Source: Macrocystis pyrifera (taxonomy: Eukaryota > Sar > Phaeophyceae > Laminariales > Laminariaceae). From it: DNA of 64,000 nt. The stretch is from assembly GCA_031763025.1 (NCBI GenBank), contig JASSKH010000003.1, positions 3,384,501 to 3,448,500 on the forward strand. Direction: 5' to 3'. Within the stretch, counting starts at the first letter, position 1; each line of letters begins with the position of its first letter. The notes beneath the pieces were generated by a model that did no database searches, was not told where the DNA came from, and saw only the letters and a list, made by a program, of their open reading frames with translations. Made by a program: the position numbers and the translations under genes. Of the stretch, positions 4,504 through 60,760 are shown piece by piece.

Positions 4504-5599
4504 CAGACATATGGACGTATGTGCGGTATTGAAAGTGCTAAAAATAAGACGCTGCCTTGAAATTACATAGTTTCAGTATAGGGCAAACATTTGGCTCTAA
4601 ATAATACCGTACTTGATATCGGCCCTGCGCAGTCAGTTTTTCGAAAATTTGCGCGAAAGTTTTTACAGACATGACTTGGAGTGCCTGTAACCGGATCGCT
4701 CAGATTTTTATGTGAAACAGATGGTTTCTGGCTACGGAAATGCCTGACTGACTATTTTTGACCTGTTTGAAGGCATGTGATTGGTCGGGACACAATTTCG
4801 CCGCGAGCGCCAGCCCTAGGCCCTAAACAACAAAACTGCTGTCCATGTCACCCTCTCTCGCTGTTCATTACGTTCAGTATGATACCAAGTATTTGACACC
4901 CGGTGAGATATCGCGATCGGCATTAGTGGCGGATAAAATCTGGGGCGATGTGCTTGAACCAGCCTGTAAAGTAAGATCAACAAAGTTAACAACTACCGGC
5001 ACATTTACACTACACATACAATCTACAAAACAGTAGTACCTCGCCTGCACGTCTACGTATCTACCAGGTACTCTGTACAACATCTACATCATCACATCTT
5101 TACGTCTACACCTACAAACCGTACCATACCGCACATATACAACACAACCACCCACACACGCCACAACCCAAACGAACAGCAGCATGTATGAGAGACGAGA
5201 AAACAACACTTGGCCCGCGGCACCTGCAACTATGATAGATGGTGATCGTCCAGTGATGTATCTAGCCTAGAGTGTAGAGCTATATTTGCCATACGCAACC
5301 AACAACACATCTATTTTCGGCTTCGAAGAATCTCGCAGGCTAGCATTGATCTGTTATACCAATATGGACCAAACGTCCCTTACATTTCCGGCCAGAGCGG
5401 TATAATAGTTCCTATCAATAGGAGCTACGAGATGCACCTATGCTACAGCAGTAGTTGTAGTACGTGGGACTAACAGCGGTCAGTAGCGATATATTAGCAT
5501 AGCCAGTGAACGAGCAGTACCACCAGCACCCGCAAGAATATGGTGAAAATTATAAAAACAGTTTACCGGTATGTTCCTTATGCTTCACACGTACAGATC
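4504..5599. other. Non-coding, nothing recognised
   Basis: No believable coding frame. A CA-rich stretch runs from about 5080 to 5165, a fragment resembling family G (TTTCCGGCCAGAGCGGTA) lies at 5388-5405, and single TACCAGGTA and TACAGCAGTA words occur at about 5062 and 5444. Confidence 0.6.
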
Positions 5600-5830
5600 A
5601 CGATATATCTATCTATCTACGACTTGAAGATCATCCACTGAAAAAATCCTGACCTGCGTTCTGAGGTGCTGTGCATGATCTGTATGGTACAGATCCCACC
5701 CAGGAAACGTATGTCCCACTGCTGTAGAGCATGCAGATCATGGTGGCTCCTGCCCGGCAACATGTGAGACGCCATGTAGATCAGAAAACCTATCTGCCAC
5801 TGAAATATCTGCTGTATACAGTAGACACCA
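5600..5830 (-). repeat. Family F repeat copy (AGATCAT-rich, about 230 bp)
   Basis: Reverse-orientation relative of the stretches at 40.67 and 60.51 kb. Shared blocks include GCATGATCTG, CAGATCCCACCCAGGAAAC and GTAGATCAGAAAACCTATCTGCC. Each copy is full of AGATCAT/ATGATCT words. It is non-coding; borders are approximate. Confidence 0.5.
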
Positions 5831-7374
5831 CCCTGTCCCTCAACACAAGGACTTTTATAATATTAGTACAAAGTAAAAACGGTTTTTGCGCATAGGGACA
5901 GAATAGTAATCAAGTGGGAATCGATCATCTGTCCGTTGTGTGAAAAGCCGGTTGCTGGTTGTATAGCTCTGGTCAACGGCCCTACGTACCAGGTACCAGG
6001 TACTTGTGGCCCATATAGGTGGTGGGAGAGTACATGGACGCTTCGCCTGATGACGGTGTTCGTTGAGAAATGGCAGGAAAGTAAAAGGGTGAAAACGCCT
6101 GGTTGGCCCATGGTGTCTGTCGCTCTGCCGTGTTCCGTGTATGACTGCGGCACGGCGACACAGCAACACGGCGGAGGTGAACAGCGTTGCGACCCGCCTT
6201 TTCGCGCTGGCAAATCAACTCACCAACTTTGTACCCAACTGCTGTTTATTTATGAAAAAAAGTGGTGTCGGGTTGGGCGGTACATGGCACCCGTCTCGAA
6301 ACCACGCAGCGTTCGGTCTGCGCCGTCTGTCACTGCTGCGGGCAGCACGGCGGGAAAACCGCGCACAATATACGTACACCATTAGAGAAGCCTGCTGTAT
6401 ATCTGCGGAACAGCAGCAGCAGTACCAGTAGACTATGTGCTATGCTGATGTGGATTTACTGCGAGCTGTCAAAGACTGATTACCAGTCGAGTGTTCACAA
6501 AAATAGGGGGGAATTTCGACTGGTTGGTCATATCCTATGCTATTCATGGGGCGGTGCGTGATACACTAACTCTTGAAAAGTTCAGCCACGCAAGCAAGTC
6601 TGTGAAGATGAAGCCCCCCAACGCTTGACAGTTGACAGTCCAGGCCGCGAGAGAGACACGACGGTCGAATTAAGATGTAACCCTGCCGGGTAAAACGGCT
6701 AAGGAAGCGACCAATGGCAGTTCGTTACTTATTCTCAACCTTCCACTATTACTTGTATTGATAGTACAGGAAAGAGCGTCAGCAGCTGCAGAGTAAAATT
6801 ACAATCATGCCGCGCGCGTGCCGTACGTACCACTCTCTCTGTACTCCAATAAAAAGGACATGATGTTGGATATCAAAACACACACACGGTTCTTCCATTT
6901 TGGGAGAGAGTGAGTGGTGCGCTACAGCATTTTACGTTTCGCTTTCAGACACCCCCCCAACCCCAGCAGCCTGACTCGTATGGTTGATGCTGTAATTCGT
7001 CGCTTTCTCGTCACTTTTTTTTTCGACATTTCCCCCCCCCCCCCCCTTTTTGACCCTTTTAGTTCTGCACTACGAATTGTGTCCAGAAACCTAAACATGA
7101 CTCTAATTCCAAGTGTGTTTTCCGCACAACGGGAGTGCAGTACTAAAAGGTCTTCAAGCCTCGAAGGACGAGGCCGAGCAGACCGGACTTAATGAAATAT
7201 GGATTGCTTCGTAGTTGTCGCTCAGTGATGACGACGTCGGTGTTGGTGCTGCTTGTAATTGGCCGATCGGTTTGCACCCTTGACACACATATTAACAATA
7301 TGCCTGGTACGATGATGGTGGAGCGGACCAGCAGCGACTTATGATAGGAACTCCGATAGTGAAGGGATTCCGTT
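5831..7374. other. Non-coding; palindromic words and a poly-C run
   Basis: Contains two overlapping TACCAGGTA words at 5987-6002 and 15 C at 7032-7046. Several short frames overlap on both strands without any family signature. No gene is called. Confidence 0.6.
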
Positions 7375-7643
7375 ATGTGCAGGACTGGTCGGCACAAAAC
7401 TTTGTGCAGGACGTGCGTCATCAATTTTAACCTTGCACGTCGGCCCAGATCAACCCGGTTCAAGGACTGAACCTCAGCCTAACCTCAAGCCTTTGGGGGG
7501 CTCGACGTCGGCAGGGGCAGTCACACGGCTCCGCCGCGTGTTTTGGTGGCATTTTTCCAAAACAAATCCGGGCGGCCAAAAGGCCAGCCTTGACCAATAA
7601 GACCCGCACCCTGCACATTTTTTGGTGCCGACCCGTCCTGCAT
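7375..7643 (-). repeat. Family E element, copy 1 (about 270 bp)
   Basis: Begins ATGTGCAGGACTGGTCGGC and ends with the inverted form at CCGTCCTGCAT, giving about 35-40 bp of imperfect terminal inverted repeat. Internal landmarks shared with the other copies are the CACGGCTCCGCCGCGTG block, the GTGGCATTTTTCC block and CCAGCCTTGACCAATAAGACC. The orientation is opposite to the copy at 35085. No transposase is present. Confidence 0.7.
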
Positions 7644-7689
7644 ATAGGGCGAGCCATGGCAGAGGGGAACCCCTAAATGGAGCGCGGCG

Positions 7690-7885: not shown

Positions 7886-9021
7886 GCTGTCGTAGATACA
7901 CACCAGGCAGAACTCACCACTCGTAACTCAAGCGTACTGAAGTTTGCGATCGATCGATTGTACTGCTGTAGAAGGAAGGCTACCAAGTACTGTACATGAT
8001 AGTGATGGTCTGGGCACCATGTTGTATGACAACATAACCACCCGAAAAGTATCACCACAGGTCTTTAGACAGTCTACGATCTTGCTTGAACACTGCTGTA
8101 CGTGCAACATGGTGTCGATGCATCACAAACGATTATCATGTCTCTGGTGGACACGGGGAGAAAGAGGGCTCCAAGCCGGCTGCAAGCCAAGACCGGAACC
8201 TGGCGGTAGGCTCTGTACAAGCGATGACCCCTGAGGTCATCACACACAACCACACACACCACGGTCAGCGAAGAGATCAAACAGCGAGTGCGCACGTACA
8301 AAATTCAAACCGTGTGCTCAGTAAGCAGACATCACCCCATCGATACAACAAAATGTCACCTTCGCATATTCATCTCGCACGTGCCCGCACGTGTCCGCAT
8401 GCACCCGCATACGAGCGGCGAAGGAGACCCATCATCTCGCTTCGGCAACGTCCCAGTAGGCCCCTCAGGCACGGCGCATCATCCCATATCCTCTGTCCTT
8501 GTATTCTGTCCTGGTATGGCGCGGCCCAATAAAGCACCTTCGAAAATCCCCGGTCCCCTTGAAACGAAGGCATTTCATTGTTCGTTGCACATAAAAGTTG
8601 TATCACAAAATACACGCAACAGGTAGTGCGAATACGTACTAAAAAACAAGCGCCCCCAGGTATTAAACATTGAGTATTAATCACTCAATCGGTAACACTC
8701 ACAGCTGGCGTAATATTTTTCATCAAAACAAGTATATACTCGTATTCAAGTTCGGTACCAGTGCCACATTCTTGCTCTATGCCCGCGTCTGGGTCGCAAA
8801 AGTTGCGTTTTACTCCTCTCAAGTGTTGACCAGAGAAAAATCCGCGACGCCTGCCCGCGAGCGCCAGCTGGGTTGGTGCCCCGACAGTTCGACGGGCCTT
8901 GCCGGTTGGGGGTCCCCCTGAGGTGACCTGGTCGGCCGGAAACCTGGAAGCACCAGCGCATTTCTTGTGCGAGCAGAGGCCATCGTTCGCACTTTGCTTC
9001 TGTATGTATATTATCCTCCTC
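7886..9021. other. Non-coding, nothing recognised
   Basis: Many short overlapping frames, none with a domain signature. The stretch ends just upstream of the TATA box at 9022. Confidence 0.5.
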
Positions 9022-9530: not shown

Positions 9531-10779
9531 TAGCACTGCTGGGTGTGCTTTTTTATATGGGGCAAACGACTTGTCGGCCTACCTTTCTCGTCTGCTTCCC
9601 TGCCTGCCTTTGCGCGACACAGACCCGTTCTGTGCTTGGCTGCAATTGTTCATTGCTCACAGCGGATAGCGCAAATGAACGATGTCTCCTGTCTGCCCTC
9701 GAACGATCGCAACGCCAGCCTCTTGTTGGAAGCATTTGGATGCATGATACGTATTGCCGTCCTGCTGTAAGTACCAGTAGTTTCTGTCGTGTGTCTTTTG
9801 GGTGGCACAAGGCCCTTTAGCTTTATCATTGTTCCACGGGCTCCATCTTTGTCGTTCGTGTCGAAACACAAGTAAATGCTTGTCCTGGGCCCGGCCTGGT
9901 CGATGTCGGCACCCTGCGAACTTTCTTGCTTTCTCCGCACTGCTTGTTTGCACGAGTTCAACACGAGCAAGGCAAGCAGTAGCCTCGCTCTCAGCTATAT
10001 ATTCTCGCAGTTTGTGATTGAGAAGATGATGAGTGCATGCATCATCCAAACGGCTTACAGTCTACCAGGTATTATAGAATAGTACATAGTTTTTGTGTGA
10101 GAGAAACCGAAGGTGGTCCATCGCTGTATTTGACCAAAGTTTTTTTCAGAAGAACTTTTTCATCATCTCAGCTGTACACGTACTGCCTACTACTCCTGGT
10201 GTACTGGTACCTGGCAGACGATGTCGACGGGTAGAAAGAACGGTTTAATGTGAAGAAAACAACAGACAAATACGATGCCTACTGCCTATCATACTATTGC
10301 TCCTTACACTCCGGGTTTACTCGTACTCCTACTGCTGTTCGTACTTCATATTAATAGTAGACGACTACCGCTGTTGTGCGAAACTCCAGACTCACAGATG
10401 TCGATATAAATGTGCAAGCAGAGCACCAGGTGTCATACAGCAGCAGCAACAGCTGGTTTTCGATGCTGTCTTCCCTTCTCATGCGTTGCCGTGGTCATCG
10501 TCACCACGATTCGCAGGATCAATAGATCAGGCAAGGTCAAGTCGGCTATCACCGCATGTAGCTGGTACCGGTACCACACTGGACGGAAAATAAAGGAACG
10601 GTCAAGTATTGATAATAACACCTAAAAGCTTCTTATATTTTCGTCCTATGTGGTACTGCTGTAGTTCAGGTCTAGACACACCAGTGTCTACGTGTATGTA
10701 TGTGTCAGTCAGTCACTAGACCACTCATACGTACCAGTATACGCGGAGAGCTACAAGAGCCCAGAGCCAACCCCTTGCG
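9531..10779. other. Non-coding, nothing recognised
   Basis: No believable gene. TACCAGGTA lies near 10063, and TACTGCTGTA and related palindromic words near 10652 and 10565. The overlapping short frames on both strands carry no domain signature. Confidence 0.55.
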
Positions 10780-10852
10780 AATGCAGTCCCGTTTTGGAAA
10801 CAAACTAGTTAGAATTTGACTGGATTGCCCCCGAAACGGGACTGCAGTCCTA
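10780..10852. mobile_element. Family C MITE (about 75 bp)
   Basis: The left arm ATGCAGTCCCGTTTTGG and right arm CCGAAACGGGACTGCAGTCC form inverted ends around a short AT-rich core. The best copy of this family is at 58757-58833. Confidence 0.65.
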
Positions 10853-11754
10853 AGAAAGAGTTTTAATAGAGCCATCATATGCACCTGCCGCTGCTTCGAA
10901 ATGTGTGACGCTGATCTGTTTTGGTTTCCTCGCCTTCATGAAAAAAAAATCATCGATGGCGAGCTTTGTTTTCTCGATTTTTGTTGTTGTTGTTTGTGTG
11001 TTTGCGTCACTTCTGTTCTGTAGTCCACTTTGTATTTTCTGTCGCAGCTCCCCCCAGCGGGGCACTACAGCTATACAACAGCTCGTATTGATTTGCTTTG
11101 TTGTTGTGGCCGCTCCGCTCCTGGCCCTCTGCTTTCTGTATTTTCGCATATTTCTCAAGGTTTCTTCGCAGTTACGAGTACTCGTACAAGGAACGTACTG
11201 ATTTATTTACACGTATATTTTTGTGACCACACAGCTTGCACAATTATCTCTTTTGGATTGAAGAATCAGCACGGACACTGGGTGTGCTGTGTGCCGGATG
11301 TCGATGGGTAGAAAGAGCGGTTTAATGTAAAGAACACACGCTCATTTGGTATACACAATGCTCTGTGCTGGTATATAGAGTATACGACATGGAGTTTTTC
11401 TCCTGTCGAAGTCAGCCAGTTGGCTCCGGCGGCTTTTGCTTTCCCCCGTGTCTCGCCATATGCCCCGCCCCCCGCACGCCTCGCCCTTCCGACATTCCTT
11501 TTTTTTCTCTTGTAGGTACATACACTGGGATAAAACGAGTAGCTGGTAGTACGCACCAGGTACAAAGAGTAGTACAACAGAGACGCTTATATACGAATGT
11601 GTGCTAATATACTACTACACATCCATGCAACTTGTCGTCTGGTCCAATCATGTCATGCCGTTTTGTCCTTTGATCTGTGGCTTGTGATTTGTGATCCGTG
11701 ATGTTGATTTGTTGTATGGGAGAGATTAGAGATGCCAACGCGACGACTCGCCCT
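10853..11754. other. Non-coding, T-rich
   Basis: A hydrophobic plus-strand frame at 10905-11201 reflects T-rich sequence and shows no domain. Nothing else is recognised. Confidence 0.5.
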
Positions 11755-12034
11755 ATGTGCAGAAGCGGCCTGCGTAAAACTTTAACTTTGTGCTGGGCGC
11801 GGGTCTTACTGGGCAAGGCTGGTCTTTCGGCCGCACGGCGTTTTGGGGAAATACGCCATCAGAACACGCGGCGGAGCCGCGTGACCGCCCCTCCTGATCT
11901 CGAACCCCCCAAAGGGTTGGGGTTAGGGTTAGGATTAGGGTGAGGCCGAGGGTCGGGTTGGTCTGGGTCCACGTGCAAGGTTAAAATTAACAACACACGT
12001 CCTGAACAAGTTTTGTGCAGGCCGCTCCTGCGCA
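11755..12034 (+). repeat. Family E element, copy 2 (280 bp)
   Basis: Starts ATGTGCAGAAGCGGCCTGCG and ends with the inverse near GGCCGCTCCTGCGCA. It shares the internal AACACGCGGCGGAGCCGCGTG block and AAGGCTGGTCTTTCGGCCGC with the copy at 35085. A GGTTAGGGTTAGG stretch near 11920 is part of this copy and not evidence of a telomere. Confidence 0.7.
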
Positions 12035-12302
12035 GAGCGGGAGCCCAACGCCATAAACCAGCAAATCAGTGCTCGCTTGTACAGTATTAATAGTCATTCT
12101 CGCAGTTTTTGTCGGAGTGCAGAGAATGCAGCACTTAGGGCTGGCGCTGCATTTGTGTAAGTGAACCAGTACTGTATACATACTACCAGTATATGTACAC
12201 TGGCAGTATAATTATACTTGCTGGAAGCACCAGTACGTTAAACAGAACTCTACCTGAATTCCACCAAACGCCATCCCGTACAACGGAAACCCTCGTACAT
12301 GA

Positions 12303-12381
12303 TGTGGTGGAAATCGAGTTTATAAGCCTTAAATTCATGTAGCGTTTGTTACGTAACATTTTTAGTCTACATTTCCCTACA
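12303..12381 (+). repeat. Left LTR of the TRIM-like element (79 bp)
   Basis: Identical at all 79 positions to 12666-12744. Contains TTTATAAG, a possible TATA element, near 12320. Confidence 0.85.
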
Positions 12382-12402
12382 ACGGCGTCGACGGCAGGAC
12401 GT

Positions 12403-12441
12403 GAGATTATGAAGAGCGAGGTCCGTGGTTCGATTCTCGCC
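12403..12441 (+). other. Stem-loop with a tRNA B-box-like sequence inside the TRIM core
   Basis: ATGAAGAGCGAG pairs with CTCGCCTTCAT across a loop containing GGTTCGATTC, which matches the RNA polymerase III B-box pattern. It may be a tRNA-derived remnant; no A box was found. Confidence 0.4.
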
Positions 12442-12665
12442 TTCATCCCCCGAAAAATAGGAAAAAAGGGGGAATATCTCATGTTCAAGAACCTGTAAAA
12501 CTCCTCACTTAGAAACACCCAGGAAGGAACGATGAGAGCACTGCGATCATTGCATACTGAGTCCAGTACCGAAAAGTCGGAGGTAAAACTTGGATACTCA
12601 GAGTCTCATCGGGGTTCCTGACTTACTCGCAAGGAGAGATAAGTCAGGTTTAGTGAGGGGGAGGA

Positions 12666-12744
12666 TGTGGTGGAAATCGAGTTTATAAGCCTTAAATTCA
12701 TGTAGCGTTTGTTACGTAACATTTTTAGTCTACATTTCCCTACA
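12666..12744 (+). repeat. Right LTR of the TRIM-like element (79 bp)
   Basis: Follows the purine tract directly and matches the left LTR exactly. ATGA follows at 12745-12748. Confidence 0.85.
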
Positions 12745-12748
12745 ATGA

Positions 12749-14292
12749 AGAATTTAGGGAACGAGAAATACCATACCTAGTACATTGTTACGGGAAGTGA
12801 AGCCGAAGTGCCCGTAACAATAGCCCCAGCAGGGTCCCTCACCAGCTTGGAGTGACGGGATGGCTGGCGGCGGTGCTTCGGCGCCAGGTTGGGGGGGGTC
12901 TACACAGCAGAAGTATGCTGGCTGCTGATTTCCACAATATTGTACTTGAATGTGTACTGGCTGCGTCAGCCAGTGCGCCAGTACCCACCCCCACGTAGCA
13001 GCAATACTATTGTAAACACGTACGTACTCAGTTTGCTGTGCTCACATGTGTGTATCAACACAGCTGTATCTTGTCACTACCAAACCATCTGTACTGCAGG
13101 CTTGGTCATATGCTCGAGACACGAGAAAGATAACTGTCGACGCTGCTGTATTCTTTAGCTTTGTGTTTCTTCGTGCGGTATTACCGGGTACCTGGTACTG
13201 CGTACCTGGTACACTGCCAGTAGCTTGGTACTGGAGCCAATGGCTTGGTACTGGCAGGAACTATATACTGATGGAGCTTGCCAGGACATGCTGCCAGTAA
13301 ATTTGATCATAAGTAGTCCAAACTTGCAGTAATTTTCTAAATAGTGATCGAGCCTACCGGTTTATGTTGCGAGTAGAGTTGCTCTTACGTACGTCCAAGA
13401 AACATGTCACATCCCACATATGCTGGAAACTTCCGGGAGGGTACGTAAGAGAGCAGAGGGAGGAAAGAGCGACTACAGCAGTAGTAGGGTATGGAGTATT
13501 GAGCCCGAAGTGTGATGTAAAATTAAGCGAAAACTCACATTTGTTTTGCTTCCGTCGGCGCTTCCAGCACCCCCCCTGTCACCAACCGGGGAAGGCCAAT
13601 GGTCTCGTTTGTAATTGGTTCGCTCGTACCCGGCTTATTGATGCAGTCCAACTTACTGACTGCTGACACAGCCAGCATGGTATCTACTGACTCAGGCTAT
13701 CAATGCCCACCCCTACAATTGAATACCTGGCACCTGCCGGTTGTCGTAACGTTCTATTCTATCTTCTAAAAGCTAGTCTATGCTTACACCTGGTATACGA
13801 TACCACAACACTACATAGGCTCTACATGCACACGCGTCACGTGACGCGGGTTGGCACCCATAAGCAGTTAGGTGCATATTATCGTATACCGGTATCTACA
13901 TCAAATTCGAGTACTACGACAAATCGTACCTCCAGTGGTACCATTTCTTTTGTATTTTTCCATCGGTAAAAAACCACGAGTCAGTGCTCAGCCATCTACG
14001 TCGATACTACTGATATATACTCATACCAAGTAACTGGTAGTAAACCAGTTGGGGCTGGGTACTGGCTGGCGCAGTCGATGCACGGGGTGCCCTCAGTATA
14101 ATTTTGAGGCAAAGCCGCAACCTGGCGCCCCCCCGGGTGGTGAGGGGGCCCCGCCGGAGGCGATTATTTTTGGCATGTTTCGCTTCAACTTCCCGTTTCC
14201 CATCACAATCCGGGGGCAAATAAGAGTCGGAGTTGGTAGTGGCAGACAATAACTTGTCCATCGTGCGCGGAGTCTTGGTGTATCCCTCTCTC

Positions 14293-14293
<1 letters not shown>
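12749..14293. other. Non-coding; cluster of palindromic words
   Basis: Two TACCTGGTA words near 13190-13212 sit among CTGGCAG/CTGCCAG and TTGGTACTGG words, with TACAGCAGTA near 13474. No gene or known element is recognised. Confidence 0.55.

Positions 14294-14342
<49 letters not shown>
14294..14342 (+). repeat. Poly-C run of 49
   Basis: 49 uninterrupted C, the longest homopolymer in the window. Confidence 0.95.
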
Positions 14343-16110
14343 TTTTGTTTTCTCGTGTCTTGTGTGACGTTTTCCGTCCTATGGATGGCGTTTTGCGGGA
14401 CGCAATATACGTAAGTTTCTTTAAGTTTCAGAACACTGCCTGCTCAATTACTCTGGTGCTATCTGATACAGTGTAACTCAGTATACGTGTACTGACAGTA
14501 TGTATTTACTGCGTCACCACCCAGCCGCAATGTACTGTTACATTGGAAAACAACCGCGAGTCAGTGTTGGCGTTGAGCTCAGTGTGTCTTGTGTTCCGTG
14601 CATACATAATCGGTTCAGTGGCGCATTCTGCCGAACAAGTAACCTTCTTCATTTTATCTGAGCAGCAGTACTCCGATACAAAAACTAGCAGCGTTGTCTA
14701 CATTGTAGTGTGTCATGGTCAAGTTTCGGTTTGTTGTTATTGTCAGTCAGTTGCGCAGAGCGCGCAGTAGTTGGTCGCGTACTTGAAGAAAATAAAAACG
14801 ATTGGTTATGTTACTTTCCTGTACGCACGTTCGTACACAGGTATACCAGGTATGTTAGTACCTTGTGTATTGATTGTTTCTTTCATAATATCATTTTTCT
14901 CTCTCTCGCCTCTCCCTTGTGTTGCGCGTGCCCTATCTCGGGCCCGTGCATCACAGTGGGTGTCCCATATTACAAGGCTTTACTGTGGGACGTACGTAAA
15001 TACTCAATACACTGGCAAGCCTCACAACCCCGGGGTCCCACTCAGCTGGTAGGGTCATACTGGCAGTACGGTAGCGCTGCCAGTACACACTGGAGCAGCC
15101 CCCAGCGCTACGAGTAGCATTTTCCTTTACCAGGTGTGATACCTGGCAGTACTATGCTCGTGGTAGGTATTGTGCTGTGTGCGACTCTCGCAGTACGCAC
15201 CAGGTAGTGCCTGATATTATCCTTGTTGACGTCGTACTGTACCATGTAGAAGTGTAGTACTGTACTTGCTCCAAGGTAGGCATTGCGGTCGTGACGTGGT
15301 AGTCACGGTATGTTAGAACGCTGTGTGCTGTTTGCTCGTGCGCTAGCAGCCGTAGGCTGTGGTAGACTTTGGCCGCTAAAACACGCCGCAGGCATTAAGG
15401 CATGCATGCCGGTCAAGGTATGCGTCGGGCAGTTAGATGGCGTCCAGACACCATTCATAAGACACTTTTCATGCCTCAAACGTTAACCGTAAGAAGAGGC
15501 GTTAAGTCTATGCGGTATTTTGTTACCTGGTGTGTACGTACCTGGTATGTATATATATAATTTTATGTTGCTGCACGAAACGTCCGTTTTGTCCTTTCCA
15601 AGGGTAGAGGTGCCTTGTATTGCGGCAAGTAAAGCACGAAGACACCAGACAGCGTCTAAGGCAACCAACCCTCTTCTGGGAAAAGAGCTTCCAAATATAT
15701 TTTTTCTGAGACACGCACCTGGTGGCCTGCAACCCCGAGAACCCAGGGAGTCTTCTTTCCACTTTTCAGGCCTTCAACTTCCAAGCGCATTCTTGCGCAA
15801 GCAAGTACGGCATTTATGTATGGCATCAAACAACGCCAAAGACAATCGTCCGCTGAGAAGTGGCCTTGAGGCTGTGGAACATGTCTGAGCAGCCGGGGCC
15901 TGGCTGACGAAAGACCGCATACCGGAGCGTATCCCCAAGTATCCTGACCCACTCCGTTTTGGCGCTTTATTCAGCAGTGGGTACACCGCTACCGTCCCGA
16001 AATATGAGCACCAACTGGACGAAATATTAATAAATTCCTTGTAGTTTTTAGGGCACATGTTTGGTATATACATTGCCCGCTACAGCAGAGTCGTGAGCAA
16101 AGTTAGTTGT
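14343..16110. other. Non-coding, palindromic words scattered
   Basis: Contains TACCAGGTA near 14842, TACCTGGTG/TACCTGGTA near 15525-15548 and further CTGGCAGTA words near 15060-15150. No coding signature. Confidence 0.55.
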
Positions 16111-16217
16111 ATTACGGGGGGCCATAGTAAATGGGACCTACGGTGCACACAAAAAACTATATATTTCCATATTTCTACTAGCAAAATTTGGTCCTATTTA
16201 CTATGGTCCCCCGTAAT
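16111..16217 (-). mobile_element. Family A MITE, copy A1
   Basis: Both arms of the family A inverted repeat (CCATAGTAAATGGGACC and GGTCCTATTTACTATGG) are present, core in the ACCTACGGTGCACAC orientation. It is flanked by T and A, consistent with a TA target. Confidence 0.9.
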
Positions 16218-16267
16218 AGTTGTGAGCGCTTGTTTCGGATTGCCACGGGGTGCCCTTGTACAGGGCA

Positions 16268-16355
16268 AACTGCAGTCAGAACCGTTTCGGGGACAGACCA
16301 CTCGAACTCTATTAATAAGTAGTTTGTCCTCTCAACGGGACTGACTCCGGTCCTA
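16268..16355. mobile_element. Family C MITE, diverged copy
   Basis: Left CTGCAGTCAGAACCGTTTCGGGGAC and right GTCCTCTCAACGGGACTGACTCCGGTCCTA are diverged inverted ends; ATTAATA lies in the core. A half copy (GGACTGCGCTCCCGTTTTCGG) follows at about 16459. Confidence 0.45.
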
Positions 16356-18321
16356 AAAGCGTCAACTCGGGGTACCCACTATTAATACTACCTGGCACAG
16401 CAGTAATACTATTGCTGTTGCCCTTGCTGTTTATATGATGCGTGCCTTGGCCCCTTCAGGACTGCGCTCCCGTTTTCGGAGAAAAAAATGAAAATTGACC
16501 TGGAGTTTCAGTCAGATTTTTGTTTCTGTGCAGTGCAGTACTACAACTACTATTAATAGCCCTAGCCGTGTGACGATTCTGTCGACAGACTCGCGATGTT
16601 TGTCATCAGCTGGCTTTACTGCATTCTGGCCTTGACGGCGCTTTCTTCAGAGTGGCGAGGTTCTATATACAGCAGCAGTATATGCACACCAGCACCAGCA
16701 GTCTTGCTTTTACCAGGTAACAGACAACCAAGAGTTTTTTTTGTCACTTCACCAAAAAGGGAAGGGGTACGTCCATGGTAGGTGGGTGTACTGTCCTTTA
16801 GGGCTGTGACTTCGCCGACTTTGTACATATATCGAGTATGAGTCGCCGACTAGTTATCAGTTGACCGTGCACATCATGGGTGCTACAGCAGTTGCAACAG
16901 GGTGCCAACTATCTTACGAGTTTTTGAGCTTCCGTGTTGTCGAAAGTCGAAAGGCTTGATTGGTTTATCACATTTTCTTGGATGTAAGATGAAGCCAATT
17001 GCGAATACGCGTGCATTTCATTTTGCCTGTCTGGTGGCGCCTCAGCGCGGTTCTCCGTCCTCCGGGGGCACTTCCGGTGGGGCCTCCTTGACCGGGGGAG
17101 GCTTTTTGGCTGGCTGTGCCACCCAACATTGATCTATATTTTTATATTTCGGCCAAGTCAACCATCTAACTCGCAGCCCGAAGTGCTGCTTCGTATTGCA
17201 GTTCAAGTTACTTCTGGCCCCAGGGGTAAATAGAACTGCCAAAAAATGAGAGCAGGTCGATGATTTGCTAATTCAGAATTGCCCACCTCGTGAGAGGTAT
17301 TAATACGAATATTGCGTAATTGCTGCTGTATGTCGTATTTCATACCAGGTACGTACCTGGTAAGGGTACCTGTATATTTCGTTCGACTGAGTGATGCTCT
17401 GCTGCATTTCGAAGGGTTGTTTTTACGATGTTGTACAGGAAAGGGAGCCAGCACATATTTTCGTATATTAAGAACACATTCATGCGGTGCCTCACAAGAA
17501 AATACTGCTCTGACACCTGCTCTGTGGTCGTGGTACAGCAGTTCGTCGTATGTATGTACCCTTGGTACCATACTTCGAAGCGTTACTCGTAACATACGTA
17601 TATTGGACGGAAGCATGACTTGTGGACTGCGGTCGTAAAGGGTATTCGACTTAAGTCAGGCTGGAACAACATGTAGGGGACATTGTCGGAGCGAAAAATA
17701 CACAATAGTACGTAAATGACCCGTGGAATGGAAACGAGCGGTGTATTTCGTGCTAGTACTGCTGTAATGTACGGTTTAATGTGAAGAAAACAACAACAAC
17801 AACTCGTAAGTTGTACTTCGCATACGAGTGTAGATACGATACTGCTCTAGGTTTATAGGTGTACCATAGGGGGGACCGCATGATGGATCATGACCGCATC
17901 GCCGGCGCGGTGCAACCGCCAAAAAAGAGACAGCATGCAGCCAGAGACATGAAACAGCGTGCTGGGGAGTGGACAGAAGGAAGGGCGGAAAGAAGGAGCG
18001 GGGGGGACCCCCCTCATTCTACTGGAGTATCATATCGTACCTGTATTTCCTTTCTACTGCTCGTACAGCAGTAGTAGTACCAGGTTCCTGGCATGATCAT
18101 ACTGCTGTACGGGCACCAGGTTTCCTGCCAGGTACCAGGCTACTCGTATGACGTACTGGTACCAGTATATATAGTATACCTGTTACATCAGTACCTACTG
18201 CTGTACAGCAGTACCAGTATAAAATACGTGAAGAACGCCATTTTTCTCCCGGTGATGGTATGTGCAGTGTGAGTGTTGCCCCCCCCCCTCCGTCCCCCAG
18301 CAAAGCCGACTTATAGTTAGG
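16356..18321. other. Non-coding; densest cluster of palindromic words
   Basis: 17346-17365 is TACCAGGTACGTACCTGGTA, an exact 20-bp palindrome. 18040-18240 packs TACTGCTGTACAGCAGTA (an exact 18-bp palindrome), ACTGGTACCAGT and several CCAGGTACCAGG words. A proline-rich minus-strand frame near 17042-17130 is not supported by any family. Confidence 0.6.
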
Positions 18322-18421
18322 TCCTATGCGGTTCGATTTCGAGCTTCAGATTTGTATTTTTCGATCTCATAAATGAATGACCCTGCTTATGCAGTCCAAA
18401 TATGCAAAATTCGACCGGAAT

Positions 18422-18512
18422 TTTTTCGATTTGAGAATCCGATGACCCAGGTCGTCGGATTTTGGGCCCCAAAATCCGACGACCTGGGTCATCGGATTCT
18501 CAAATCGAAAAA
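18422..18512. repeat. Perfect inverted repeat, two 45-bp arms with a 1-bp spacer
   Basis: Bases 18422-18466 and 18468-18512 are exact reverse complements around the single C at 18467. Such a structure can extrude as a cruciform, and its transcript would fold into a long hairpin. Confidence 0.95.
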
Positions 18513-18660
18513 TGGCATGCTCTCTATCCCAAAATCCCCAAAATCCGACGACTTGGGTCATCGGATTCTCAAATCGAAAAATAGCATGCTCTCTATCCCA
18601 AAATCCGACGACTTGGATCATGAGATTTTCAAATCGAAAAATGGCATGCTCTCTAAATTC
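18468..18660 (+). repeat. Three direct repeats of about 60 bp
   Basis: Units starting CCCAAAATCCGACGACYTGG and ending GCATGCTCTCTA occur in a row at about 18468, 18536 and 18597. The first forms the right arm of the 45-bp palindrome. Confidence 0.85.
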
Positions 18661-19224
18661 AAGATGTTATCCACCACAGCAAACAGCAGCAGAACGATGG
18701 ATGAGTTGGATGGTGACACAGCTGTATAGCGACGTTGCTTCGCGCCCGACGCGCGGACGGCGCGTCCCTCCGTGGCCAGACTAGAGTCGGCTGGCGCGGG
18801 CTCGGGCCTAGAGACCAAGAGAAGCGCACTCGGCACGCGCCTCTCCGTGGATACGTACTCGTAGGCTACACTGCGGCTGTACAGCAGCAGCAGCAGCAGC
18901 AGTCAGTCACAAAATGAAACAAAAAATACCAAGACAGGTTGACTCTAGCGCACTCGCCACGTCTCTTCGCCACCAGACTAGAGGCAGTCAGCGTGGGCTC
19001 GGACGCTTGGGTCCTACGCGCAGGGCAGCGCACCCAGCGCGTCTCTTCGCGACGCCAAACAACAATAGCAGCGGTTAGTCTTGGCGTTTGCTCGAATCTC
19101 TACACGCACAATAAATCTGATTTTTCGATTTTTCCGCATAGGAAGACCCTTTCGATTTACCAAGTTCATATCTGAAAATGCCATCGGGTCAAAATCTGAA
19201 GCTCAAAAATCGAACCGCATAGGA

Positions 19225-19638
19225 AACGGCCTTAACTGAAGTCAACACATGGATATAAAAGTCAGTGTGTAACGCTTGTGGTACCAGGCATGTATGATTG
19301 GGGTACGTGCAAGGAGGACATATGGCAGAGGCGGTACACCGGTTACAGCAGTACGTTTTCGTGAACACTCCTGGTTTGTTGTGTATTTCCTAGGACTGCG
19401 CACGGGCAGCCTCGATCACTCGAGATGACACTGAGTGCGCGAGCGACAAGTGTACTGGATTGCATCAGTATGCTGGGTTCGACCGACCGTAGCGGGGCTA
19501 GTCGCCCCCTCCCCCGGCTGGTAAAGGGTATCCGCTGGAGGCGCATCCCTAGGCGAAAGAAGTAGTGTTCGCCTATTAATATTAATACCTACTCCTGGTA
19601 CTCATGTGAAATACAGCAGTACTTTATATCATACTATA
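19225..19638. other. Non-coding, nothing recognised
   Basis: Only TACAGCAGTA words near 19344 and 19612 and a CTATTAATATTAATAC stretch near 19573. Confidence 0.5.
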
Positions 19639-19746
19639 ATTACGGGGGACCATAGTAAATGGGACAAAATATTGTTAGTATTAATAGGGAAATATATAAG
19701 GTTTTTGTTTGTACCGTAGGTGCTATTTACTATGGTCCTCCGTAAT
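19639..19746 (+). mobile_element. Family A MITE, copy A2
   Basis: Complete inverted arms and the ATATTGTTAGTA core orientation; the right end is CTCCGTAAT. ATTAATAGG in the core replaces the usual AAAAATAGG. Confidence 0.9.
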
Positions 19747-20289
19747 AGTATTAATATTTGTATATACACTGCTCACTGCTGTAGTATCAAGCAAGGTACG
19801 GCAGTACGTAGTATGTTGATACGATACGACAAACGAGAATAGCGATGTGTTATTTTTTCTGCCGTGGTTGTGTTTTTGTAATTTTTGTTTAGTTTGCGTT
19901 GTTTTGCGGGAATGCCTTTCTGCACCCCTGGACAAATATTTTCTTCTTTTCGTGCCACAGCTGCAGCAGTAGTTGCCTGAAGATGTCCAATAGTTGCGAG
20001 CTCTCAGATCTGCCGGTAGGTACGGACAGGAGGAGCTTTTCTGCCCTTCTACTTGTACAGCAAGTCAGTAGTGAAGTACAACAGGGTCCCAAGTATGTCA
20101 TACCAATGGTATGTCTTATCTACATGCACACGTACTAGAGATACAGCAGTACGTCGTATCGCTCTTTGAGGGACTCCAGGAACATAGGGTACCAGGTGAT
20201 TCAGAACAACGCCTCCAACCTCATGGAACACCTGGATGCTTTGGCTTCCCCTAGGAGTAGGTCGGCCCTGCACTTTTAGCAGGTCGTTG
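19747..20289. other. Non-coding, nothing recognised
   Basis: No domain-bearing frame; TACAGCAGTA near 20142. Confidence 0.5.
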
Positions 20290-20710
20290 GTGGTCATATT
20301 TCTATCTTGCAACGCCCGTCCAGATTATAACCCGAACCTCGACGCGACCCATGACGCCAACCCTTTCGGGGGGCTCGAGGTCGGGAGCGGTCGCTCGGTT
20401 CCACAGCAGTGTGATTTGGTCAAAGATGCCAGGAGACATGTCAAGCAAGGAAAAGCGTGCGCCGTCCAAAGTTTGGAACCGAATGTTCCACACTCAAACC
20501 TACCAGGTAATAGTTTGGTGTCAGTCGAGGCATGTCGAGGCAAAGGTGCTGTCTGTCCAAGGGGTGAAAATGCTGTCTCCTGACATCTTATCTTTGGTTT
20601 TGTTAGCGTTTTTTCCAGCAAAACGGGCGGCCGGAAGACCATCCTCGACCAATCAGAGTACAACGACCTGCAGGAAAACATTGCCGGGCTTACCTGCATC
20701 CAGGGCGAGT
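20290..20710 (-). repeat. Family E element carrying an internal insertion of about 190 bp
   Basis: The E landmarks GGGGGGCTCGAGGTCGG and TCGACCAATCAGAGTAC flank an extra stretch of about 20412-20602, inserted within the block that elsewhere reads GTGTTTTGGTGGCGTTTTTCC. The extra stretch has short inverted ends (GGTCAAAGAT / ATCTTTGGTT). An open frame across it is not supported as a gene. Confidence 0.55.
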
Positions 20711-43475: not shown

Positions 43476-43507
43476 TGACGGGTTAAGGGACCCCCTGTCT
43501 TCCCCTG

Positions 43508-43853: not shown

Positions 43854-43875
43854 CCCCCCCCCCCAGTGACCCTAG

Positions 43876-44640
43876 GAGATAGATGGTGGCCACAGGCGGC
43901 CAGACAGGAAGGGGATAAGATTAGCAAAAAAATTCCATGTAATATATATGGAAACAACGTGATGTCGAGAAAGTATGGAAGAATATAGGGGGAAACCAAG
44001 AAGAGGTGATGTCCGCCGGGAAGTCTAAGAGGTACAAGGCAGAAGTAGAAGGGAGGATAGAAAGAAGGGAAAGGCTAGCGCGAAGAAACAAGGTGGAATC
44101 GGAAAAACAGTTTGAGATATACGGGGGGTTGAGCGAAGGAACAGGAATGAAAACGTGTTTGCACGGCCCAATGGACTTCGCGAAAACGCTGAAACTGCGA
44201 TTTCGTGTAGGTGACCTGGACCTGCCAGAAAGAAGAAAGAGGTATACCAGTAGCCGGGAGAAGGAAGTAGATGCACAGATGTGCCCGTGTGGCAAAGCAA
44301 TAGAGGGTAGAACTCACATAGTAGGAGAATGAGATTACAAGAAGGAACGGGATATGTAAGAAGAGGGATGAGGTAATTAGACGAATGTGGCATGGAGGAG
44401 TGTGATACACTAGGTAGCAACGAGAAAACGAAGGCTATCCTAGAAGATAGATGGTGGCCACTGGCGGCCAAACAGGAAGGGGATACAATTAGCCAAAACA
44501 TTCAAGGTAATATATGGAAACAAGGTAGTGAGCGCCCAATTGTTGGAGGTGTCTCTATTAGGAGTAGAACCGGTGCTCCGTCTCGAAGGGATGCGTGGTC
44601 ATGGTCAAGTGACTAAGGCAAGCAACAAATGAGTACGCCC
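43876..44640 (+). pseudogene. LINE-type (non-LTR) retrotransposon 3' end, decayed
   Basis: Several frames together read like the C-terminus of a non-LTR reverse transcriptase and its 3' UTR. The best segment is 44006-44332: after a basic, Arg/Glu-rich helix it has LRFRVGDLDLPERRKRY and then CPCGKAIEGRTHIVGE, the first part of the C-x-C-x(n)-H-x-C knuckle common after LINE RT domains. A TGA falls where the last Cys would be expected, and DYKKERDM follows in frame. EDRWWPLAAKQEGDTISQNI lies in a second frame at 44440-44505, and its coding DNA also occurs at 43876-43935, so part is duplicated. Fragments of the same 3' end are at 36150 and 58010. Which LINE clade it belongs to cannot be told. Confidence 0.5.
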
Positions 44641-44653
44641 CCCCCCCCCCCCC
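44639..44653 (+). repeat. Poly-C run at the LINE 3' end
   Basis: About 15 C follow AATGAGTACG directly; a second C stretch continues after one T. Confidence 0.9.
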
Positions 44654-45239
44654 TCCCCCACCGGCACTTAACTTCTTTTTTCGTGGCGCGTAGGCTTCTT
44701 TTCAATTCAATTCAGCATTCCCAGTGATCGTCGACGCCCATCGAATTTTGCATAACCAAGAGTGTCCTCTGTGTTTCGGGAAAATAGTTGTACCCAGAGT
44801 ATACAACAACCGAATACCCCGTGCCTTCTACCAGATATGTTTTTCTTGAGAGCTCTACCTCAGGTACCTACCTGGTGCTTGGGCTCGCGCTTTCAGCGAC
44901 CTGATAAAACGTGGTTGAATAACCGCGCCGCGTTGACCCCGCCGTGAAATCCATCCACCACACAGGCCGTGGTGACACTTTTGAGACGCGTAGGTTGCAG
45001 GAGACCAAAATCGTGTGCCAGGGGCGGTCGGTGTTATCAACCGCCAAGTGAGAGCGCGCAGGGGTGCGACTATTGCTAGCGCCGTGCAGCCTAGGTTGCG
45101 CATTTTGTGTCCTTGCAGTGTAGCTAGGGTACACCCCTTGCATGCCTCGGCAGCCGGGGCTGCTTCTTGGGGCCCGCTGGTATGCTTCGCGATTAGCCCT
45201 CTTGGAACTGCAGTCCCGTTTGGGGAACAAACTATTAAT
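44654..45239. other. Non-coding; family C end at the right
   Basis: GGAACTGCAGTCCCGTTTGGGGAACAAAC at 45203-45231 is one arm of family C, and the matching GCGCTGCAGTTCTAAAAG lies at 45380-45397, beyond A13. A13 may thus have inserted into a C element. Confidence 0.5.
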
Positions 45240-45346
45240 ATTACGGAGGGCCATAGTAAATAGGACCTACGGTACACAAAAAACGTATATATTTCCCTAT
45301 TTTTACTACCAATATTTGGTCCTATTTACTATGGTTCCCCCGTAAT
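45240..45346 (-). mobile_element. Family A MITE, copy A13
   Basis: Ends ATTACGGAGGGCC and CCCCCGTAAT, core ACCTACGGTACAC. It was inserted at ACTATTAATA, which provides the TA. Confidence 0.92.
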
Positions 45347-45645
45347 ACTTGGGATGTGAGTGGTTTGTACTCGGAACGGCGCTGCAGTTCTAAAAGTGAC
45401 GCTTGCCGCAAACGAGCCTCTGCATGGTTGGCCGATGATTTCAGATTGGTGTCCGGGTTAGAATGGTCGGAATGCAAGGAGGACTCGTGCGGTACGGGCG
45501 TGACATAATCTTTCTCGACGTTGTTGGGCGGTCGCGCTGCTCGTAGACGATCGGTAACCCCAAACGGGTCCGTGTTTCGGTCGCTATCCTTCAAAAGGAG
45601 TCCCGAAGGGGTTACTACATATTGTCGGGGGGTTTTTTTAATATT

Positions 45646-45665
45646 CCCCCCCCCCCCCCCCCCCC
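45646..45665 (+). repeat. Poly-C run of 20
   Basis: 20 uninterrupted C, 6 bp before A14. Confidence 0.95.
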
Positions 45666-45671
45666 TGTACT

Positions 45672-45778
45672 ATTACGGGGGTCCATAGTACATAGGACCT
45701 ACGGTATACACAACAACCTATATATATTTATATTTTTACTAGCAATATTTGGTCATATTTACTATGGTCCCCCGTAAT
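45672..45778 (-). mobile_element. Family A MITE, copy A14
   Basis: Ends ATTACGGGGGTCC and CCCCCGTAAT; core ACCTACGGTATACAC. Confidence 0.92.
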
Positions 45779-45984
45779 ACGTATAATGAAGGAAGTTCGA
45801 AAGGAGGTTTATGACCAAGAAGGACGAATGCAGCCCAGCCCCATCATGGGAGGGCATGCTGCACCGCCGCTGTTGTTCGGCACGATTGACGGCTGCTGCT
45901 GCTGCTGTATGTACTGTTCGATATGCAAAAGGTCGTGTTTCAGCTGTATTAGAGTAGTGCTACTACCGTTGTTTGTTTGCGTTA

Positions 45985-46245
45985 CCTTCGAGAGCGTTGA
46001 GTTCCTTCGCACCGGGGCGCGATCGCTTTTGAGCGCTCGTTTTATCGACGGCGGCAAGGGTTGCCAACACCGAACTGAGGGATTTTTTTCGGCTAGTCTG
46101 TCGAGAGAGAGCCTTCCTTCCGAAACTATAAAATGTACCTGGTACGACTTTAGCGCCCCTCACGGTAGCGTCGTCGAAAAAACGGGCGCTGAAAAACGAT
46201 GGACTCCCCCTCCCTGCTGCGCGAAGGAACCCAACCCTCTTTACG
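45985..46245 (+). repeat. Family M, third copy
   Basis: CACCGGGGCGCGATCGCTTTTGAGCGCTCG parallels GCCGGGGTGCGATCGTTTCTCAGCGATCG at 21890, and GGGCGCTGAAAAACGATGG with CTCTTTACGGTACTG parallels 22080-22135. Confidence 0.5.
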
Positions 46246-46821
46246 GTACTGCTGTCTTCGTGTTGTCTTGTTTTTTTCTTGTTAATGTTTTGTCTTGTCT
46301 TTTCTCTCGCAACAGGTTTAGTTATCGCCCCGAAGTAAATACGACGCAGTCGCTTGCTCTTTTCTTGTCCCCGTGCTCGTCCTGGCTCTCTTTGCTGCTG
46401 CTGCTGCTGCTACTGCTACTGGTGCTGATGTTGCTCCTATTGATGCTGTTACTATTGTACTACTATTCATACTGATGCTGCTACTGTTGCTGCTACTACT
46501 ACTGGTAGTGCTAATGGTAGTGCTGCTGGGGTGCTACTGGTGGTGGTGGAGGGGGGGGGGTGGTCGTGATGCTCAAGTCTTTTCCCGACCCCAACAACTT
46601 TTTTTTTTTTTAGCGCCCCGGAGAGCGAGAGAAAACCCCTGTCCGCACTTATTTCTCAAGGTTTCGTGTACCGGTTCGAACCCGGTTCGTTTCTTCCACC
46701 TTAGTCGACGCCAGTAACTTTTCAGCTCCATTTCCAAGTGCTGGGCCCCCACAACCCACAACTTACAGTGGGTACAGCTCTGAACACGTTTCGCTTGAAT
46801 GCGCTTTTTTTTGCTTGTCAG
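46246..46821. other. Upstream flank of the kinase exons, low complexity
   Basis: CTGCTGCTACTACTGGTG-type repeats (46390-46550) and a T run (46601-46612) lead to a TTGCTTGTCAG acceptor. No upstream exon was recognised. Confidence 0.5.
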
Positions 46822-59432
<12,611 letters not shown>

Positions 59433-59534
59433 GTGGGCGGGTGGTGACTTTTCGGTGTGTTGCCTTTTGTTTGTTGGTTTGTTTCTTTTTTTTTGCCCGT
59501 GTCTTGTGTGTGTGTGTGTGTTTTGTTTTTTCGA

Positions 59535-59720
59535 AGCATCAGACGGATTGTTAGAAATAGAGCTTGAGCTCACCACACTTCCATGCTCATTGGGGTCGCG
59601 TCAGTTTAGCCCGTCGCTCCCGACTGATGCTACCACGGGCGCGTGAGCGTGTTGACCCACCCCGAGACGGGCACGTGCGGTGGAGATGTGGAGATAACCA
59701 CCGGGGAGTCATCCCTCGGT
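59535..59720 (-). mobile_element. Family D, second near-full copy
   Basis: CTCACCACACTTCCA, TTTAGCCCGTCGCTCCCG and CGTGCGGTGGAGAT parallel 41915-42125 in order. On the minus strand it ends next to AAAAAACAAAACA. Confidence 0.55.
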
Positions 59721-60512
59721 TGGTTGCTCTTGCGGGTGGCCGGGGCAGGGGGCGTCCGAATCGGTGTGTCTGGGCTGGAACGTATTGTTCTCTGCACGGA
59801 CAGTGCTGCTCTGATAGGTGCTGTACTGATTCGGGCTGGATGCTGCTGGTGTTGGGTGACGGTGTGTGTTGGTGTTGGCACTGGATGTTGTGCTGTTGCT
59901 GCCGTCGTTATTGTTGCTGTAGGTATTGCTGTTGCTGTTGCTGTTGGTGCTGCTGTTGCTGTTGCTGTTGTTATCGTGTGATGTTGGTGTTGTTGCTGTT
60001 GGTGGTATGTGATGTTCAGGTGGTGTTGGTGTTGGTGGTGTTGAAGTTGAGTTGCTGTTGGTTGTCGGTGTTGGTGTTGACGTTGGTGTTGCCATGGTTA
60101 TTGTTGGTCGTGGCTTGGGCATTGCGGGCTTGTGTGACTTCATGGTGCATTTTGTTGCAGCTGTTTTTTGCTGCCGAGCGCCATCTTTACGTCCCCATGG
60201 AGCGCCAGCCAGACAGCGTGCCAGAGGCTGCCTACACTGGTCTGTTGTCCACGACACGAAGCCAGCTTTCTTCATATTTTTGCGCTGCGTATATAGTAGC
60301 GGGGCTGGTGCTTTCAATCACAAGGTTTCGCGCTCTGATGCTTCGTGGCAACCAAGCCTTGGGTGTTACCGTCCCTTGTTTTTTGTCTTCTTGGACCGCA
60401 CTTCCGTTAGGGGGACAAATTACTTGAATTTAGAGTTGAGCGTTTTTTTTCTGTCCAGGGGTTAACCGACCTTGGGTTGATAACGACGTTGCTAACATTG
60501 CACACCTCGGAC

Positions 60513-60760
60513 TTACAGATCATCTACGAGTACAGATCATTCTCAGTTCACTATCTAGATATTTCAAGGCAGATAGTTCACCTATTCTTGATATGTACCA
60601 GGTATGATCTACAGTTGCTCATGTTGACGGGTGGGACCCGTATAATCTGCATGATCTATAATAACACATGTTTCCTGGGTCGGATCTGTTGTATGCAGAT
60701 CATGCACAAGCTCTCACAATGGCAGGGTGGGGAACTATGATGGATGATCTACAGCAGATA
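60513..60760 (+). repeat. Family F copy (about 250 bp)
   Basis: TACAGATCATCTACGAG, TTGCTCATGTTGACGGGTGGG, TTTCCTGGGTCGGATCTG and CATGCACAAGCTCTCACAATGGCAG align with 40672-40875. TACCAGGTA lies inside at 60597. Confidence 0.65.

Follow-up and report, generated by a model that had tools for sequence, protein, structure and literature searches.

Tc1/mariner transposons leave footprints that are quoted as 2–4 bp, and as 0–3 bp for ZB (PMC7913693), and ATGTCAT and ATGACAT are given as canonical footprints of Sleeping Beauty (PMC520745). Stowaway and mariner elements are described as usually leaving a small duplication together with short end sequences (PMC4561436). In the rice data, 8 of 94 putative excisions left precisely the duplicated target site, the others leaving deletions and/or filler (PMC4423477). 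Among brown algae, Ectocarpus is reported to contain 17 Mariner-Tc1 families with almost 12,000 copies, most of them non-autonomous (PMC12477816). Here, we analyzed a 64,000-nucleotide stretch of the giant kelp Macrocystis pyrifera genome (contig JASSKH010000003.1, positions 3,384,501 to 3,448,500; hereafter the window), in which a few short words bounded by TA are strongly over-represented. We consider it highly probable (about 0.9) that these words are the excision footprints of TA-target, Tc1/mariner-type miniature inverted-repeat transposable elements (MITEs). Excision is usually hard to detect after the element has gone, and here each departure seems to leave a word that tells the family.

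Short TA-bounded words in the window and the genome

A preliminary description of this DNA had put the two main words at about 30 and about 17 copies by eye. We counted 31 copies of TACCWGGTA, the word pair TACCTGGTA/TACCAGGTA, and 18 of TACTGCTGTA with its partner TACAGCAGTA. Both counts are far above those in shuffles of the window that keep its 2-, 3- and 4-letter composition (n = 100, 100 and 60), in which the means were 0.58, 0.90 and 0.92 for TACCTGGTA and 0.16, 0.24 and 0.55 for TACTGCTGTA, with a maximum of 4 for each. Two more words had been said to behave similarly. This holds for TATTAATA (19 copies; means of 0.77, 0.53 and 1.77, maximum 5) and fails for CTGGCAGTA (3 copies; means of 0.44, 0.56 and 0.93, maximum 4), the enrichment of which is not comparable with that of the other three words.

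The enrichment extends to the whole genome (537,376,219 bases in 223 contigs), where each pattern count was paired with that of a control pattern, the reversed pattern in the case of TACCTGGTA. There are 121,279 copies of TACCTGGTA (60,614 + 60,665) against 2,421 of the control (1,182 + 1,239), and 59,709 copies of TACTGCTGTA (29,436 + 30,273) against 1,062 (550 + 512). A further sample from the same genome, 180 kb in 18 stretches of 10 kb outside the window, contains 37, 15 and 36 copies of TACCWGGTA, TACTGCTGTA and TATTAATA, where 1.45, 0.78 and 2.85 are expected, and at least one TACCWGGTA is present in 16 of the 18 stretches. TACCWGGTA is about twice as dense in the window as on average in the genome (31 versus 14.4 per 64 kb). 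The preliminary description would have been undone by a normal frequency in the rest of the genome or by confinement of all copies to one longer repeat family. The frequency is high there too, and none of the 31 TACCWGGTA lies within the self-repetitive 15% of the window (1 of 18 for TACTGCTGTA, 4 of 19 for TATTAATA). The flanks of the words in the window appear unique.

Single-mismatch neighbours of TACCWGGTA are mostly rare, and its central base is A or T. The broad clustering described earlier is unsupported for this word (variance/mean of 1.0 in 2-kb bins of the window), and what stands is a set of close pairs, with 5 of the 30 gaps between neighbouring copies shorter than 20 bp. The three larger palindromes that had been pointed out all exist, at positions 1–8 bases away from those first given. 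Even palindromes with arms of at least 7 bases number 15 in the window versus 2.4–3.0; such general palindrome enrichment, considered as a cause, is real but leaves the specific words unexplained.

When repeats and simple sequence were masked, 109 words of 7–11 letters were enriched in the window at p < 1e-6, with a presumed scar word at the top. Among 90 of these, most are fragments or longer forms of a small set of TA-flanked words, alongside CAG and some further simple or tandem repeats. A dyad-frame test of the 16 dinucleotide frames D...rc(D), with k = 3–6 and p < 1e-6, returned CCWGG (31 observed, 0.8 expected), CAGCAG (17, 0.4), TTAA (15, 0.85) and CGAG (15, 2.4) in the TA..TA frame of the repeat-masked window. 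The only other frames with any word were AC..GT (two) and CT..AG (one), and all three words are parts of TA..TA words. These TA-X-TA words replicate in the 180-kb sample. Dispersed repeats were left unmasked there, and words also appear in other frames, so that only the masked window provides a clean frame control. Direct duplication of TA around the core has observed/expected ratios of 2.4–3.5 for CCWGG, TTAA and CGAG and of 1.7 for CAG, a comparison that decides little, as rarer dinucleotides reach comparable ratios from small numbers.

Insertions at fixed TAs of a repeat and a candidate source element

The interspersed repeat seen most often in the window, the TTACGG-MITE, is about 110 bp long, has inverted ends starting with TTACGGGGG, is flanked on each side by TA and is found at 22 places. 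One copy (25479-25598) contains two exact insertions, in which TA has become TA-CTGG-TA and TA-CCAG-TA. Both are absent from the other 33 aligned places (40 rows, six of which are the same place on the other strand). We searched the genome for insertions at two TAs of this repeat; the 100 matches listed in each case follow the order of the contigs and were not drawn at random.

The uninterrupted first site, AATAGGACCWA, has 65,728 matches (control 216), and the strict pattern for interrupted sites, AATA-C...G-TAGGACCWA, has 552 (control 8), or about 0.8%. A loose pattern, AATA-N(2-10)-TAGGACCTACGG, gave 825 matches (control 1), many of the 100 listed being substitution or duplication variants of the repeat, and CCATAGTWAATAC plus following bases gave 827 (control 31), with scars and substitution variants mixed among the 100 listed. 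In the first 100 listed strict matches, the inserted X is CCWGG in 65 (CCTGG 41, CCAGG 24), a six-base relative in 8 (CCATGG 3, the rest CCTTGG, CCACGG, CCCTGG and CCAGGG), CCAG/CCGG in 7 (CCGG 4, CCAG 3), CAG/CTG in 5, CGAG/CTCG in 3 and CTGCTG in 1; the other 11 include doubles. Eleven of the 100 are on small contigs, alike and all CCWGG, and without them CCWGG accounts for 54 of 89.

The second TA has 565 matches (control 6) and a different spectrum: among 100 listed, CTG 31, CAG 30, CCTGG 12, CCAGG 5, CTGCCTG 5, CTGG 3, CTCG 2, CCAG 1 and other 11, including two doubles. The 7-base insert CTGCCTG may stem from a single amplified copy or form a further class of scar. Sleeping Beauty leaves TAC(A/T)GTA, which would match the kelp CAG/CTG class. 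At these TTACGG-MITE sites, the plain repeat has a single TA and the interrupted one has two TAs separated by a few bases, as in a Tc1/mariner excision footprint. Words of the CCWGG and CAG kinds arise by insertion of X+TA at a TA. The two TAs have different insert spectra, and therefore different TAs of the TTACGG-MITE receive different families.

A candidate source of the CCWGG words is the CCA-MITE, an element of about 79 bp between two TAs that starts with CCACTCTG and ends in its reverse complement, forming terminal inverted repeats. Its longer start, TACCACTCTGGCC, has 292 exact genome matches (control 8), and 328 CCA-MITEs have both exact 10-bp ends and TA at both ends (control 1). TACCACT behind TAGTWAA, the sequence that precedes the first TA, gave nine matches (control 1), eight of which read CCACTCTG. 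In four of the nine, a 78–79-bp element lies between two TAs in a TTACGG-MITE with both junctions intact, and the TA is duplicated, the host repeat otherwise having one TA at this site. In two more the TTACGG-MITE lies upstream and the right side is damaged, and the other three are either unrelated or ambiguous. Homologous TAs occur plain, with the element, and with a scar, in different TTACGG-MITE copies. CCA-type scars make up 80 of the 100 listed from the 552 matches, versus at most 8 elements, and this high ratio is partly a detection effect, as an exact match was demanded of intact elements. A search of the window for intact elements with TACCWGG, CTGCTG or CAGCAG at their ends found no pair with more than 18 of 30 matching end bases, with no chance control run. 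The interspersed repeat had no match in viral contigs.

We compared the bases that flank the target TA at words and at elements. Profiles were scored as log-likelihood against ordinary TA, with 1000 samples of random TA as the null, and the CCA-MITE profile used 14 of 20 retrieved copies, leaving out two without a recognisable right end and four with odd right ends. Since individual elements contribute both of their ends to the flank sets, which also contain related copies and a few MITE-abutting words, the results are to be read as indications. Base -3 is A at 0.40 of CCA-MITE ends versus 0.44 at TACCWGGTA, and base -1 is G/A at 0.44/0.33 versus 0.42/0.37. For T-A-C at -3 to -1, the values are 0.56, 0.58 and 0.62 at TTACGG-MITE ends and 0.54, 0.49 and 0.48 at TATTAATA. 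TACCWGGTA fits the CCA profile only (0.36 bits, null maximum -0.12; TTACGG profile -2.13), and TATTAATA fits the TTACGG profile only (0.23 bits, null maximum -0.69; CCA profile -0.75). The CTGCTG side of TACTGCTGTA (-0.09 versus -0.25) and TACAGTA (-0.58 versus -0.93) beat all nulls on the TTACGG profile, and TACCAGTA leans to the CCA profile, below the null maximum (-0.07 versus -0.03). Thus, TACCWGGTA and TATTAATA each appear to share target flanks with one element family.

Proposed origin of the words and its alternatives

We propose that a MITE inserts at TA, duplicating the TA. On excision, the strands would be cut a few bases inside the 5′ ends of the element, and a short 3′ tail would stay on each side of the gap. 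Joining of the tails would leave TA-X-TA, with X derived from the element ends. The simplest model that we infer places the cut three bases in from each 5′ end, which would produce 3′ tails of CCA, TTA, CAG or CGA. CCA tails would yield CCATGG with no overlap, CC(A/T)GG with one base facing (A against A), and CCAG, CTGG or CCGG with two; CCWGG would be the main CCA product, with CCATGG, CCAG/CTGG and CCGG less frequent. In TTA tails, TA would pair with TA and leave TTAA. CAG tails would pair at both ends around a central mismatch to leave C(A/T)G, as might be reflected in the 30 CAG to 31 CTG among the 100 listed at the second site, and CGA tails would leave CGAG or CTCG. The model would cover the main listed classes except CTGCTG and CTGCCTG, and CCA ends could yield the CCWGG, CCATGG, CCAG, CCGG and related inserts that make up the 80 CCA-type scars at the first TA. 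Because of its TA-X-TA form and its occasional insertion at these TAs, CTGCTG/CAGCAG is provisionally grouped with the footprints as well. In close pairs, for example TACCTGGTACCAGGTA, a later event may have used a TA that an earlier one had created, and a double of this kind was seen inside the repeat (second site). Excision would then be the origin of the scars, with self-pairing of 3-nt tails setting X. The words would record past jumps rather than regulatory sites and would need no function, and within an exon an insertion of 7 bp would cause a frameshift.

Several observations weigh against this reading. The commonest scar, at 5 nt, is longer than the 2–4 bp quoted for Tc1/mariner footprints (PMC7913693); classes of 3 and 4 nt also exist. 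TTAA is a putative scar by its flank match and the pairing logic, and no TTAA insertion was seen inside any repeat. Not all TATTAATA are scars, as 2 of the 19 in the window sit inside MITE copies (21771 in a CCA-MITE, 19679 in a TTACGG-MITE); those at 19749 and 45233 sit at a TTACGG-MITE edge. TACGAGTA and the CAGCAG side of TACTGCTGTA match neither flank profile, and no element with ends predicting CTGCTG, CAG or CGA was found in the sequence examined. The small-contig insertions, 11 of the 100 listed, are possibly not independent, and no intact CCACTCTG element is among the 100 listed matches of the CCATAGTWAATAC pattern. Among 497 indel places scanned between paralogues in the examined sequence, just one was a TA-X-TA gain that involved an enriched word. 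Scars exceed intact elements by tens to one at the first TA versus roughly 3:1 in the 180-kb sample, the latter ratio comparing 37 words with 19–25 model matches, many of which are both-strand duplicates. A transposase search with PF13358 gave no matches, with three candidates scored and other families not tried.

The preliminary description had offered three origins for the words: sites for a dimeric DNA-binding protein, a short mobile motif, and a product of GTAC-rich microsatellites. Binding sites maintained by selection would suit the sharp dyad of TACCWGGTA and the rarity of most of its one-mismatch neighbours. They do not sit well with 121,279 genome copies, with spacing in the window that is near-random apart from close pairs, or with leading words that have common TA flanks around unrelated interiors. 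This origin also leaves unexplained why the leading words are TA-X-TA and why they appear, in a range of related forms, as exact insertions at particular TAs of the TTACGG-MITE, and we regard it as very improbable. Slippage or decay of GTAC- or CAG-rich microsatellites draws on an excess of GTAC (858 versus 500 on both strands), on abundant CAG repeats and on the presence of TA-(CAG)n-TA with n = 1, 2 and 3, and may yet account for the CAGCAG word. Against it, the flanks appear unique, TA duplication inside repeats is exact, and Tandem Repeats Finder gave no TACCWGGTA array; as a source of the words in general it is hardly credible. Both ideas were dropped after the TA-frame test and the repeat insertions.

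The mobile motif comes nearest of the three. Insertion at TA is what we observe, and the excess of scars over intact elements at the tested TA would suit a 5–8-bp word that moves itself without a larger element. But the same TA also holds the 78–79-bp element with CCACTCTG ends, the flank profile of the words resembles that of the CCA-MITE, and six-base CCATGG and four-base CCAG/CCGG fit the joining of CCA tails. A self-moving word is accordingly a quite improbable alternative, and the residue of a departed larger element is most likely. The words in the repeat could also descend from a few insertion-bearing subfamilies that were later amplified, and the alike matches on small contigs speak for this. 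X varies at one TA, the two TAs differ in their spectra, both halves of the repeat are hit with varied downstream sequence, and all 31 TACCWGGTA of the window are outside self-repeats, all of which speaks against amplification, a very unlikely explanation.

Features of the window and comparison with known footprints

Table 1 Words and MITE copies located in the window.
Feature	Position	Strand	Basis
TACCTGGTA, putative footprint word	5062..5070	-	
Two overlapping TACCTGGTA sharing TA (5987, 5994)	5987..6002	-	
TACCTGGTA	10063..10071	-	
Two TACCTGGTA 14 bp apart (13189, 13203)	13189..13211	+	
TACCTGGTA	14844..14852	-	
TACCTGGTA	15539..15547	+	
TACCTGGTA	16711..16719	-	
Perfect palindrome, two TACCWGGTA (17343 -, 17354 +)	17343..17362	.	
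TACCTGGTA	20501..20509	-	
TACCTGGTA	23936..23944	+	
TACCTGGTA	26278..26286	+	
TACCTGGTA	27423..27431	+	
TACCTGGTA	28453..28461	-	
TACCTGGTA	32262..32270	+	
TACCTGGTA	34244..34252	+	
TACCTGGTA	35917..35925	+	
TACCTGGTA	38340..38348	-	
TACCTGGTA	46136..46144	+	
TACCTGGTA	49163..49171	+	
TACCTGGTA	51636..51644	+	
Two TACCTGGTA 19 bp apart (52096, 52115)	52096..52123	-	
TACCTGGTA	54286..54294	+	
TACCTGGTA	54705..54713	+	
TACCTGGTA	55886..55894	+	
Perfect palindrome, two TACCWGGTA sharing TA (58866 +, 58873 -)	58866..58881	.	
TACCTGGTA	60596..60604	-	
TACTGCTGTA	5444..5453	-	
TACTGCTGTA	7961..7970	+	
TACTGCTGTA, first TA shared with right end of CCA-MITE	10654..10663	+	
TACTGCTGTA	13474..13483	-	
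TACTGCTGTA	17757..17766	+	
TACTGCTGTA	18064..18073	-	
TACTGCTGTA	18100..18109	+	
Perfect palindrome, two TACTGCTGTA sharing TA (18196 +, 18204 -)	18196..18213	.	
TACTGCTGTA	19344..19353	-	
TACTGCTGTA	19612..19621	-	
TACTGCTGTA	20142..20151	-	
TACTGCTGTA	32464..32473	+	
TACTGCTGTA	33385..33394	+	
TACTGCTGTA	34574..34583	-	
TACTGCTGTA	39506..39515	+	
TACTGCTGTA, overlaps self-repeat-masked sequence	55502..55511	+	
TACTGCTGTA	62954..62963	+	
19 TATTAATA (span 10349..49260)	first bases 10349, 12085, 16025, 16310, 16380, 16551, 17298, 19574, 19580, 19679, 19749, 20773, 21771, 21950, 25839, 38452, 42641, 45233, 49253	.	
TTACGG-MITE copy with two exact insertions	25479..25598	-	alignment
TTACGG-MITE copy (about 110 bp, inverted repeat from TTACGGGGG, TA on both sides)	49447..49564	.	
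CCA-MITE copy	21737..21817	+	
CCA-MITE copy	55146..55229	+	
CCA-MITE copy	43110..43191	-	
CCA-MITE copy, TA-flanked	10572..10655	+	
CCA-MITE copy	32527..32607	-	
CCA-MITE copy	32929..33005	-	
CCA-MITE copy (degraded)	52146..52223	+	
CCA-MITE copy (partial)	5342..5402	-	

Part of a protein kinase gene (Pkinase, E 1.5e-12) lies at 57288-57698, + strand. Its listed PDB matches include a calcium/calmodulin kinase kinase chain, which is not the best match. Further kinase-like pieces were seen by eye, in reading frames only, at about 46.7-59.5 kb. Pure runs of C or G, 30–49 bases long, occur at 14294-14342, 47309-47355 and 22405-22434. A tandem repeat of about 43 bp forms two arrays (37772-38148 and 40031-40322) and contains ATCGATAGCCATTGCCGGCCACAATAGATT or close variants. 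Palindromic units are repeated at L012:3241-3481, with CTCGGGTA and TACCCGAG.

If the words are excision footprints, they could allow jumps to be counted, and target choice and the rules of end joining to be measured, over a whole genome. In motif searches in kelps, the strongest words may be scars rather than regulatory sites. It is also conceivable, though unlikely, that kelp MITEs have been excised far more often than they have been retained, perhaps through a transposase or host system whose main effect is removal. In that case well over 100,000 clean, family-specific scars would have accumulated, and the scar/intact ratio would be an odometer of past jumps.

Single Tc1/mariner footprints are already known, and in the open-access literature we found no report of footprints as the leading vocabulary of a genome. 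Searches of that literature on the word, on motifs in kelps and on footprints at genome scale found no description of the phenomenon. The main text of the Macrocystis genome paper (PMC10498591) has no occurrence of 'transposon', and that of the Ectocarpus paper (PMC12477816) none of 'footprint'. The Mariner-Tc1 MITEs of Ectocarpus are likewise brown-algal and can be likened to those of kelp by their description (PMC12477816). Like Stowaway-type MITEs, the kelp elements are small, TA-flanked, inverted-repeat and of high copy number, whereas their end sequences (CCACTCTG, TTACGGGG) are different. The kelp scars are far more uniform than the excision sites described in rice (PMC4423477). They resemble the Tc1/mariner footprints of Sleeping Beauty, ZB, Tc1 and Mos1 in having a TA target with its duplication and a few bases, putatively from the element ends, between two TAs. 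Unlike these, the commonest kelp scar is 5 nt long (CCWGG), and its word is present more than 10^5 times in one genome.

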